A DNA stretch of 64,000 nt, taken from an uncultured Litoreibacter sp. Its GTDB lineage: Bacteria; Pseudomonadota; Alphaproteobacteria; Rhodobacterales; Rhodobacteraceae. The stretch covers positions 372,001 through 436,000 of the forward strand of contig CANLOU010000003.1 of assembly GCA_947492995.1 (NCBI GenBank), in the 5' to 3' direction. Both the position numbers and the translations under genes were made by a program. Of this stretch, positions 26,374-34,609 are shown one piece after another. The notes under the pieces were generated by a model that saw only the letters and a program-made list of their open reading frames with translations, did no database searches and had not been told where the DNA came from. How positions within the stretch are numbered: the stretch's first letter is position 1; each line of letters starts with the position of its first letter.

Positions 26374-26408
26374 TTTGTGATCACGCAAAGAAAACGCGTG
26401 ATCACAAA
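26374..26408. promoter_or_regulatory. Paired GTGATCAC operator upstream of sucC
   Basis: Two palindromes, GTGATCAC at 26377-26384 and 26398-26405, begin exactly 21 bp apart (two helical turns). Together they also form a larger inverted repeat, TTTGTGATCACGC and GCGTGATCACAAA. The same core pair with the same 21-bp spacing precedes sdhC. The position, about 100 bases before the sucC start, suits an activator site. The likely binder, a GntR/FCD protein such as that at 11411, is inferred. Confidence 0.65.
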
Positions 26409-26489
26409 AGGGATTTCTTAGTTCCCAACAACCAACTTTTGGCCGGCTCTCTCGAATCGAGCTCCGCAAGATTTTGGGGGAGGCGAGAT

Positions 26490-27719
26490 TTACAGCGGTT
26501 CAGTTCGTGCGTCTGGTGTGGGTTCAATAATTTGCAGCCCGGCCTCAGTCACCTCGAAGAATGCGCCGGACTTGAGCTCGGCTTGGAAAAGCTCAGAGAT
26601 GTATTCAAGTGCTCCGGTTATCCCATCTTCCCACGCGTCGCGATCCAGTCCGGTTAGATGGTTTTTTGCAATTGAACGGTTCGTAAGCGTCAGGACTTCC
26701 GCAGTAGATTTCAAATTGTTTTTGATATGCTCTGGAACTTGACGATGGCGGCCAAGGCGGCTGCAGTCGCCGACCATTTCGTAGACGGCTTGAATCATGC
26801 GTGCGACGTGGCCTGTGTCCCTGCCACGGAACTGCACTAACTCGTTTAAGCCTTCAGAAAACAGCTCTGCATCCATAGTCGCAAGTGCGCCCTCGTCGTT
26901 GGTTGCGACACCCAAGTAGCCTGCGGCATAGGCCTTCGAGCCATGCAAAGCAGCTGACTTGCGCAGTCCCATCTCAAGTTCCTCATAGGTGCCGTACCAG
27001 CGGGGTAGCATTTTGAAGGCGTATGCCTCATGCGCGCTCATGTCCTCGGGATCGAGATCACGCCAAAGCTCGTAGCGGGTATGGAGTTGTGTGCGCACTT
27101 CGTGAGGATCCATGTGATCACAGAGACGAAACTTGGTCGCGGCCAACATGGGGGAGTTCAGCTCGATGGGATCGTAGACCTCAAGTAGCCACGTGGCCCG
27201 TTCGTAATGTGTATCTATTTGCGCCCAAGCCTCCTCCGGGACGCTGTCAACATATCCACCACCGCGCAAATCCCACGCTTGATGCAAGCGCAATTGAGCG
27301 GCGAGCGCGGCCAACGGGTAGTGGTCTGGCTTGGCGGCGGCAAGCGTCTCGAATTGAGCGACGAGTTGCGCTGGAATTGAGGAGATTGCTGTCGGGGCAC
27401 AGTCATAGTCATACCGTTCGCCAGCAATGATGCGAAGAAAGGTTTCTATGGCAAATTGAGTTGTAGAGTAGCCCGCAGGACACTTGGCCCGGTTTTGGTC
27501 CCACTCTTTCAGCAGTTCGGCAAAAGAGACCCAATCTGCATCCGAAACCAGCTCATGTATGAGGTCTGTCTGGACCTTCTGGTGGGCGGTGCTTTTTGAA
27601 ACGACGCCCTTGGCATAGGAGATATTGTTCCGGTATTGGCGGTCGGTGAGAAGATGAGGTGCGCCGTTGGCCAAGACTTCCCAAATAGCGTAGGCTAGAT
27701 CTTTGAATACATTCATCAT
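26490..27719 (-). CDS. Unknown large soluble protein between mdh and sucC
   Basis: 409 residues, largely helical in appearance, with many W/Y/L-rich helix pairs (for example [13 protein letters not shown] and [20 protein letters not shown]) that resemble tetratricopeptide-like packing, though no clean repeat consensus can be drawn by eye. No signal peptide or membrane span. An adjacent ATG at 27716 is an equally good start; AGAGGG lies upstream. Base composition is lower in G+C than in mdh and sucC. It is flanked by 231- and 212-base gaps, so it is probably its own transcription unit and may be a late arrival in the cluster. Confidence 0.65.
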
Positions 27720-27897
27720 CGCTTAAGACCCTCTCAGAGCCATGAATGGCTGCTTGGTTAGGGGAGGACGCACTTTCCAAATGCGCTTTGGCGTATAGCC
27801 AACGATGAGATGAAATTGCTTTGTCATAAGGCGCCCCTTGTCTTTCAGGGCGTATTTGAGCAGCAAATGATGGTATAAATGAGGGCAAATTAGGAAC

Positions 27898-27932
27898 AAA
27901 AAAGGCCCGCCGAATGGACGGCAGGCCTTTCA
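27898..27932 (-). terminator. Terminator of mdh
   Basis: Read on the minus strand: AAAGGCCTGCCG, a six-base loop, then CGGCGGGCCTTTTTT, a stem of about 12 pairs with one mismatch and a T-run. Confidence 0.85.
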
Positions 27933-27950
27933 GTTTAACTGTAGCTGCTG

Positions 27951-28913
27951 TTACGCCAGCGCGTTGTCGATGTCCTTGCAGGCTTTGACCAAGCCTTTGA
28001 CCGCATCGACGGATTTGTCGAACATGGCCTGCTCGTCCTTGTTCATGTTGATCGCCACGACGCGTTCCACGCCGCCTTCGCCGATCACAGTCGGCACGCC
28101 AACATAAAAGCCGTCGAGGCCGTAAGCGCCGTCAACATAGGCCGCACAGGGCAGCACGCGTTTGAAGTCTTTGAGGTAGCTTTCGGCCATCTCAATGGCG
28201 GAGGTTGCCGGCGCGTAGAAGGCGGAGCCGTTGCCCAGAAGGCCCACGATTTCCGCGCCGCCATCACGGGTGCGCTGCACGATGGCGTCCAGCTTCTCTT
28301 GCGTGGTCCAGCCCATATCCACCAGATCGGGCAACGGGATGCCTGCGACGGTGGAGTAGCGTGTCAGCGGCACCATTGTGTCGCCGTGGCCGCCCAGAAC
28401 AAAGGCTGTGACGTCTTTCATGGAGACGTCGAATTCCTCGGCCAGGAAGTGACGGAAACGCGCCGAGTCCAGAACGCCTGCCATGCCGCAAACCATGTTG
28501 TGCGGCAGACCGGAGAATTCGCGCAACGCCCAAACCATCGCGTCCAGCGGGTTGGTGATGCAGATCACAAACGCATTTGGCGCGTGGTCGCGGATGCCTT
28601 CGCCCACGGATTTCATGACCTTGAGGTTGATGCCCAGCAGGTCATCGCGGCTCATGCCAGGTTTGCGCGGCACACCGGCGGTGACGATGCACACATCCGC
28701 GCCAGCGATGTCGGCGTAGTTGGTGGTGCCCTTCATGGAGGCATCAAACGGGCCGGCTGGGCCAGCTTCAGCGATGTCGAGCGATTTGCCTTGCGGCGTG
28801 CCGTCGGCGATGTCGAACAGGACGACGTCGCCCAATTCTTTCAAAGCTGCCAAGTGAGCGAGCGTGCCGCCAATTTGTCCGGCGCCGATGAGGGCAATCT
28901 TGGGTCTGGCCAT
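27951..28913 (-). CDS. mdh: Malate dehydrogenase (LDH-like type)
   Basis: 320 residues from the ATG at 28913, giving [20 protein letters not shown], the NAD-binding opening of alphaproteobacterial malate dehydrogenases of the lactate-dehydrogenase-like type. A TTG six bases earlier is a weaker start. Further marks are [17 protein letters not shown] on the substrate loop (arginines), [20 protein letters not shown] and the catalytic histidine in [14 protein letters not shown]. It oxidises malate to oxaloacetate. In this cluster it also receives malate released by Mcl2 on the facing strand. It has its own terminator and no visible GTGATCAC element. Confidence 0.96.
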
Positions 28914-29078
28914 TTGCAATGGTCTCCAGTCGGTTGAAGTTGGGGGAGGGGGTAGCTTGTTGCATTGGGCGGTGCAAGGGTGCTGCGGCGCAGAAAGTTG
29001 GCGCCCGGGGGGGCTTGGGCGCGCCGTCAGGACGATTTAGTGTTGAATATCAGCAGGTTTTTCCACTAGGCCGAACCT

Positions 29079-33565: not shown

Positions 33566-33592
33566 TTCATTAACTTTACGAGGGAAAACACA

Positions 33593-33826
33593 ATGGATAA
33601 CGCAGCAGCACCGGGTCCGGCGCCCGTCAAAAAGATGGTTCCGGCCGCGCTTCTTTGCTTCTTCTTGGGGACATTTGGCGCGCACCGATTTTACCTAAAC
33701 AAATACGGCACCGCGATCTTGATGATCCTGACGCTGGGTGGTTTGGGCATTTGGGCCCTGATTGACCTTGTGCGCATCATCGTCGGCTCGATGAAGGATT
33801 CGAACGGCAACGATCTGGAGCGCTAG
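33593..33826 (+). CDS. TM2-domain membrane protein (copy 2)
   Basis: 77 residues: KKMVPAALLCFFLGTFGAHR then FYLNKYGTAILMILTLGGLG and IWALIDLVRIIVGSMKDSNG, the canonical TM2 domain. It lies 27 bases after copy 1, with AGGGAAAA just before its ATG. An 11-bp stem (33837-33863) follows the stop. Confidence 0.85.
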   Translation: MDNAAAPGPAPVKKMVPAALLCFFLGTFGAHRFYLNKYGTAILMILTLGGLGIWALIDLVRIIVGSMKDSNGNDLER

Positions 33827-33836
33827 ACGCCCCTTT

Positions 33837-33863
33837 TGCAGGCACTTCAAAAAAGTGACTGCA
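33837..33863. terminator. Stem-loop after the TM2 genes
   Basis: TGCAGGCACTT pairs with AAGTGACTGCA (one mismatch) around CAAAA. No T-run follows, so termination is only possible; it could equally protect the 3' end. Confidence 0.4.
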
Positions 33864-33894
33864 TGATCTGAGACATTAAGGCTAGGCTTCCCCC

Positions 33895-34584
33895 ATGCGG
33901 TGGTTGTCTGGCCTTTTTCTTTCTGTCTGCGCCTGTTTCGGCGGCCAAGCCCAAGCGTGCGACCTTGCCCTGATTTTGGCGGTAGATGTCTCAGGCTCGG
34001 TCGATGCGCAGGAATATGACCTGCAAATGGACGGGCTGGCGGCAGCCCTGCGCAACCCTGCCATTTCCGAGGCGCTGGTAGTGGCGGAGGCATCCGTACT
34101 GGTGATCCAATGGACCGGAACGGGGCGGCAGCGCGTGTCGGTGCCTTGGGTGCATATCCGCAACTTTGACCACACTGACCAGCTGGCCGAGGATATAGAG
34201 CGCGCACCGCGCATCTGGCGCAACTTCTCAACCGCGGTGGGGGAGGCGGTCGCCTTTGCGATGGACGCGTTTGACGATGTGCCCCAGTGCGAACGCAAGG
34301 TGGTCGACGTGTCTGGCGACGGCGTCTCGAACGAGGGGGTGTCCCCCGAAAAGCTGCATGCTGAGTTGAACGCCGCCGGTATCATTGTGAACGGGTTGGC
34401 AATCGAATCCTATGACAAGAACCTGTCTGAGTATTTCGAGGAGAAGCTGATAACCGGCCCGGGTGCCTTTGTGATGCGCGCCGCCACCCATGAGGAGTAC
34501 CCCGACCGCATCAAGCGCAAGCTGTTCCGCGAAATCACCAAGCAGGTTTCCGGGTTGCCGCCTGCTGCGGATGGCCGTTTGTGA
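33895..34584 (+). CDS. DUF1194 von Willebrand factor A-like exported protein
   Basis: 229 residues with a signal peptide (MRWLSGLFLSVCACFGGQAQ, cut near AQA). The mature chain begins with the MIDAS-type motif LILAVDVSGSVDAQEYDLQM, and later VVDVSGDGVSNEG supplies a second metal-ligand loop, as in the DUF1194 vWA family. It is probably a periplasmic metal-dependent protein-binding module. The first GTGATCAC of the sdh operator overlaps its stop codon. Confidence 0.85.
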   Translation: MRWLSGLFLSVCACFGGQAQACDLALILAVDVSGSVDAQEYDLQMDGLAAALRNPAISEALVVAEASVLVIQWTGTGRQRVSVPWVHIRNFDHTDQLAEDIERAPRIWRNFSTAVGEAVAFAMDAFDDVPQCERKVVDVSGDGVSNEGVSPEKLHAELNAAGIIVNGLAIESYDKNLSEYFEEKLITGPGAFVMRAATHEEYPDRIKRKLFREITKQVSGLPPAADGRL

Positions 34585-34609
34585 TCACGAGTCGAAAAAC
34601 AGTGATCAC
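34581..34609. promoter_or_regulatory. Paired GTGATCAC operator upstream of sdhC
   Basis: GTGATCAC at 34581-34588 and 34602-34609 begin 21 bp apart and form a larger inverted repeat (TTGTGATCAC / GTGATCACAA). Spacing and core are identical to the pair before sucC. The first copy overlaps the DUF1194 stop. It lies about 130-155 bases before the sdhC start, a position suited to activation. A GntR/FCD binder is inferred. Confidence 0.65.

Follow-up and report, generated by a model that had tools for sequence, protein, structure and literature searches.

A GntR/FCD protein of 221 aa, encoded at 11411..12076 (+ strand) of the window (the whole 64 kb stretch of DNA analysed), is probably the local ortholog of AkgR. 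From the arrangement of its candidate sites it is predicted to activate the suc-lpd run and sdhCDAB through paired operators, and to repress its own gene through a single site; the probability of this reading is put at about 0.86. The earlier note had proposed that one GntR/FCD regulator acts on sucC, sdhC and itself, and this proposal gains support because the regulator and the operator pair co-occur across genomes, all of the sampled pairs (30/30) have a TCA context, the geometry is fixed, and a link between AkgR and GTGATCAC has been published.

Operators and genes in the window

The 8-mer GTGATCAC occurs six times in the window (11394, 26377, 26398, 34581, 34602 and 27114), compared with a mean of 0.84 in shuffled sequences, and none of 100 shuffles contained six or more. 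The first five of these positions were given exactly in the earlier note, which also held that 64 kb contained no further copy; the sixth copy, at 27114, makes that statement wrong. This copy lies within an ORF (26490-27719) whose product has no Pfam match, and it was rejected as an operator and taken as a chance occurrence.

The paired operator upstream of sucC (TTTGTGATCAC-N13-GTGATCACAAA, 26374..26408) consists of sites 26377-26384 and 26398-26405. That upstream of sdhC (TTGTGATCAC-N13-GTGATCACAA, 34579..34611) consists of sites 34581-34588 and 34602-34609, the first of which overlaps the stop codon of a DUF1194 gene. Both pairs have the common 21 bp offset that had been described for them, and form larger inverted repeats (TTGTGATCAC/GTGATCACAA). 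The single copy at 11394..11401 ends 9 bases before the ATG of gntR at 11411 and begins exactly 12 bp after a −35-like TTGACC (11376..11381, + strand), a position that overlaps the expected gntR −10 and from which autorepression is predicted.

The regulator gene is convergent with lpd (12201..13589, − strand; NCBIfam lipoamide_DH above cut-off), the last gene of the suc-lpd run. On the same − strand, at 15912..22803, are sucB (15912-17516), sucA (17520-20489) and sucD (21916-22803), all with NCBIfam matches above cut-off, and two other ORFs separate sucA from sucD. The run begins with sucC (25084..26277, − strand; NCBIfam PRK00696 and sucCoAbeta above cut-off), with a TTG start at 26277 that was assumed from homologs. 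The + strand region 34738..39734 carries sdhC, sdhD, sdhA, four other ORFs and sdhB. NCBIfam matches support sdhC, sdhA and sdhB, as well as mdh, while sdhD gave no NCBIfam match at 1e-20 and is named by its position. The 11411 protein matches the Pfam models GntR (47.7 bits) and FCD (70.9 bits), each above cut-off. Its FCD metal site (N142, H146, H189 and D211, each invariant in 41 loci) was considered as a distinctive feature and rejected, since paralogs commonly have N/H/H/D too: among 24 paralogs, 18 have N at the first of these positions, all 24 have H at the second, 23 have H at the third, and 12 have D at the fourth.

In the host genome (3.84 Mb, 99% complete), GTGATCAC-N13-GTGATCAC is found exactly twice, before sucC and before sdhC, and the reversed control is not found at all. 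Allowing up to one mismatch, TTGTGATCACAA matches ten places in the host genome, two of which are the window sites 11394 and 34581. The remaining eight all lie in mechanically called ORFs of at least 200 aa, and were rejected as additional single-site members of the regulon.

Promoter geometry and predicted direction of regulation

The positions of the pairs relative to their genes were compared in 41 promoters (22 of sucC and 19 of sdhC, window included), with starts extrapolated from the proteins of the window. The distance from the end of the pair to the start is 96-150 bp at sucC and 107-191 bp at sdhC. In the window, a −35-like GTGACA (34668..34673, + strand) is found 58 bp after the sdhC pair, and is followed at 16 bp by a −10-like TAAACA (34690..34695, + strand). 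Similarly, 17 of the 19 sdhC promoters have GTGAC beyond the pair (gap of 57-59 bp in 15, 47-48 bp in 2), in most cases with a TA-rich hexamer another 16-17 bp along, and the other two lack it, whereas just one of the 22 sucC promoters shows it, with a gap of 66 bp. A wider search of 394 family genomes for the pair followed by N37-67-GTGAC matched 222. Among the 150 matches listed, a gap of 57-60 bp was seen in 137, of 47-48 bp (one helical turn less) in seven, and of another length in six; this search conditions on both N13 and GTGAC, and the gene behind a match is known for the 41-promoter set only. The geometry at sdhC fits upstream activation by the pair, and GTGAC could be half an operator instead of a −35 element. 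At sucC, TT is common 47-48 bp past the pair (86% and 73% of the 22 promoters). The −35 and −10 of the window's sucC were not placed, a sigma-70 scan of this region giving a single match, on the wrong strand.

At gntR, the self-site GTGATCAC is present in 27 of 41 loci examined (one genome was included twice, as L062 and L165), a set of mostly best-scoring loci that is biased to close relatives and is not a random draw. In 26 of these 27 it lies 12 bp past TTGACN, so that the expected −10 of gntR is covered, and it is commonly 9 bp before the ATG. The exact self-site is absent within 160 bp upstream in the other 14 of the 41 loci, including those of the Cereibacter group (L168-L170). Together, the pair-to-promoter geometry and the self-site over the −10 lead to the prediction of sdh and suc activation and of self-repression.

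In favour of the pairs being repressor sites, through which the regulator would repress suc and sdh in addition to gntR, are the overlap of the gntR copy of GTGATCAC with the −10 and the fact that many FCD regulators are repressors. This reading is nevertheless unlikely here, as 57-60 bp, or one turn less, separate the sdhC pair from the −35-like element, a phasing expected for upstream activation and a distance too great for simple occlusion at sdhC. AkgR is also described as an activator in the available text of PMC6365646.

Under the activation reading, the 11411 GntR/FCD protein would recognise the palindrome TTTGTGATCACAAA, with GTGATCAC as its core. Two dimers would be bound next to each other with an offset of two helical turns, well upstream of the promoters of sucC and sdhC, and those at sdhC would occupy a fixed helix face relative to the −35. 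Bound in this manner, they would activate the genes for the half of the TCA cycle that leads from 2-oxoglutarate to fumarate (the suc-lpd run and sdhCDAB), and one dimer on the single site at the gntR −10 would shut gntR down. The sites themselves, their spacing and conservation, the layout at sdhC and gntR, and the co-occurrence with the regulator are read directly from the DNA; binding by the regulator, the direction of regulation, cooperativity and a signal are what we infer from them.

Conservation of the pair and identity of the regulator

The exact GTGATCAC-N13-GTGATCAC is present in 126 of 149 family genomes (the host's own included), with two pairs in 89, one in 35 and three in two of them, and the reversed control gave 0 in all. 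With a spacer of 0-30, 269 pairs were found in 133 family genomes (reversed control 0), and 219 of the 269 have N13; the non-N13 pairs of this count may contain a few that arose by chance. In a sample of 30 N13 pairs, one per genome (L026-L055), the gene behind the pair is sucC in 16, sdhC in 13 and fumC in one (TIGR00979 above cut-off). All ten pairs of six named genomes precede sucC or sdhC, as do all three further family pairs (L204-L206), one of which has N12. The search of the host genome and its relatives that the earlier note proposed led to TCA genes both for the two pairs of the host genome and for the 30 of 30 sampled within the family. Outside the family, a pair with a spacer of 12-14 was found in three of 285 genomes of the host's class, and none of the three precedes suc or sdh. 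With up to ten candidates scored per genome, none of these 285 carries an 11411-type GntR at E < 1e-50.

Orthologs of the 11411 protein are present in 133 of the 149 family genomes at E < 1e-50, a cut chosen after the values had been seen. A pair with any spacer (0-30) occurs in 130 of the 133 genomes with the ortholog, but in 3 of the 16 without it (Fisher p 1.8e-13), and the N13 pair alone in 123 of 133 against 3 of 16 (p 3.1e-10); as the genomes of a family are related by descent, these p values are not figures for independent events. The pair occurs without the ortholog in G019, G096 (77% complete) and G114, and the ortholog without the pair in G040, G122 (76% complete) and G147 (73% complete). 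No suc or sdh match was found in the 20 kb around gntR of G040. In another genome, G109, no pair was found, and gntR is reduced to a broken remnant next to YgjP.

That the pairs are bound by a different FCD-type GntR, and not by the 11411 protein, appears quite improbable. This alternative draws on the three genomes with a pair and no 11411 ortholog, on seven weaker paralogs in the host genome, and on one of the three pairs from outside the family, which in G545 (L202), a genome of another family, stands directly before a different FCD gene with a 29% identical product. Recognition of GTGATCAC may also extend beyond the 11411 protein, as it has been proposed for a Pseudomonas regulator 32% identical to AkgR (available text of PMC6365646). 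Against it, pair and 11411 ortholog go together in genus after genus (the 130 of 133 versus 3 of 16 above), the gntR promoter itself bears GTGATCAC at a fixed place, and identity to the host paralogs is no higher than 21-28%.

An RNA hairpin or terminator at the sucC inverted repeat, where a scanner called a terminator-like hairpin (26408-26374) and the arms of the window's pair extend to 13 bp, is effectively ruled out by fixed 8-mers and variable spacers without complementarity: 42 pairs have 42 different spacers and constant 8-mers (the latter fixed by the search itself), facing spacer bases are complementary in 6 to 15 of 42 at the inner five positions and in 20 of 42 at the edge, only two of 42 spacers have at least four of six complementary positions, each 8-mer is itself palindromic, and the sdhC pair has the same arrangement with no T tail.

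Relation to AkgR and significance

In the available text of PMC6365646, which cites Imam 2015, GTGATCAC is given among the sites bound by AkgR, an activator of Rhodobacter sphaeroides that is described as a member of the GntR family. The available text of PMC4344238 has the GntR protein RSP_0981 as predicted regulator of sucCD, sdh and sucAB-lpd, with predicted targets RSP_0967-6, RSP_0974-6 and RSP_0965-62. Comparison with RSP_0981 was made through a close relative, Cereibacter johrii (L085, G149), R. sphaeroides 2.4.1 being outside the 80 named loci; the cytochrome c2 of C. johrii is 97% identical to a typed R. sphaeroides query. A single strong GntR match was found in C. johrii; it is 75% identical to the 11411 protein (next best 32%) and is encoded about 0.7 kb from sdhB, in a genome that carries pairs before sdhC and sucC. 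The proximity of its gntR to sdhB fits the numbering of RSP_0974-6 and RSP_0981. Going by the matching targets, RSP_0981 is probably AkgR, and AkgR is presumably itself of the FCD type.

A text search of the literature did not find TTGTGATCACAA, and a search for GTGATCAC returned no plainly relevant title among the matches listed. Among the matches examined for AkgR, PMC6365646 is the one that discusses it in the text available, the others being reference entries. The core regulon has already been described in R. sphaeroides. Compared with the accounts in the available portions of PMC6365646 and PMC4344238, the present analysis adds the family-wide rule of the pair, the phasing at sdhC, and the self-site, of which Cereibacter-group loci have no exact copy.

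We lean towards a broader interpretation, in which one palindrome is read according to its position in a two-promoter TCA regulon recognisable in more than 100 genera of a single family. The pair with its 21-bp offset, placed on the helical face of the promoter (some 58 or 48 bp away from the sdhC −35), would activate, and the copy at the −10 would repress gntR, a feedback that lacks an exact site in the Cereibacter group, where AkgR has been studied. The regulon could grow by the addition of a pair at another TCA gene, as may be the case for fumC in one genome. The reach of a TCA regulator so far described in a single phototroph would thereby extend to most of the sampled genera of the family, many of which are marine. 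Its exact operators can now be searched for and edited, and an FCD regulator becomes available in which to test cleanly how the choice between activation and repression depends on helical phase and position.

Comparison with known systems

PdhR, a GntR regulator of Gammaproteobacteria, has a regulon that reaches sdhCDAB in Shewanellaceae (available text of PMC5343134), but the 11411 protein scores 20.1 bits with the PdhR model, below its cut-off of 330. In Pseudomonas simiae, the palindrome GTGATCAC was proposed as the site of PS417_07240, the GntR-like regulator of a deoxyribonate cluster that shows the 32% identity to AkgR mentioned above. It differs from the present system in serving another pathway and, in the available text of PMC6365646, a single copy of the palindrome is mentioned, occupying positions −47 to −40 relative to the start codon. 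The closest likeness is to the AkgR regulon of R. sphaeroides, which, as far as the available texts describe it, has the same kind of regulator (GntR), the same motif (GTGATCAC) and the same predicted targets (sucCD, sdh and sucAB-lpd). Two differences are seen: gntR is next to lpd in the window but next to sdhB in C. johrii, and the window has an operator over its own gntR −10, whereas three Cereibacter-group loci are without the exact self-site.

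Copies of the palindrome within the window

A sixth copy of the 8 bp palindrome GTGATCAC is present in the window at 27114–27121, within an ORF (26490–27719) that lies between mdh and sucC. The predicted 409 aa product of this ORF had no match in a Pfam search. Upstream of sdhC, the first of the two predicted operators (34581–34588) overlaps the stop codon of the DUF1194 gene.

Predicted operator pairs in other genomes

A third exact pair (two copies of GTGATCAC separated by 13 bp) in genome G042 is found about 125 bp upstream of a fumarase gene (L197, contig C16, nt 1794–1822), the product of which is a class II fumarase (TIGR00979). 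Another genome of the family, G135, carries three pairs with the 13 bp spacer, and six when any spacing from 0 to 30 is counted. Genome G109 retains a broken gntR remnant adjoining YgjP (L215, contig C56), and a search of this genome found no pair.

Outside the family Rhodobacteraceae, in genome G545, a GTGATCAC pair (L202, contig C189, nt 992–1020) is situated directly upstream of the gene for a different FCD regulator, 29% identical to the GntR/FCD protein of the window (gene at 11411–12076), suggesting recognition of the palindrome by a wider group of FCD proteins.
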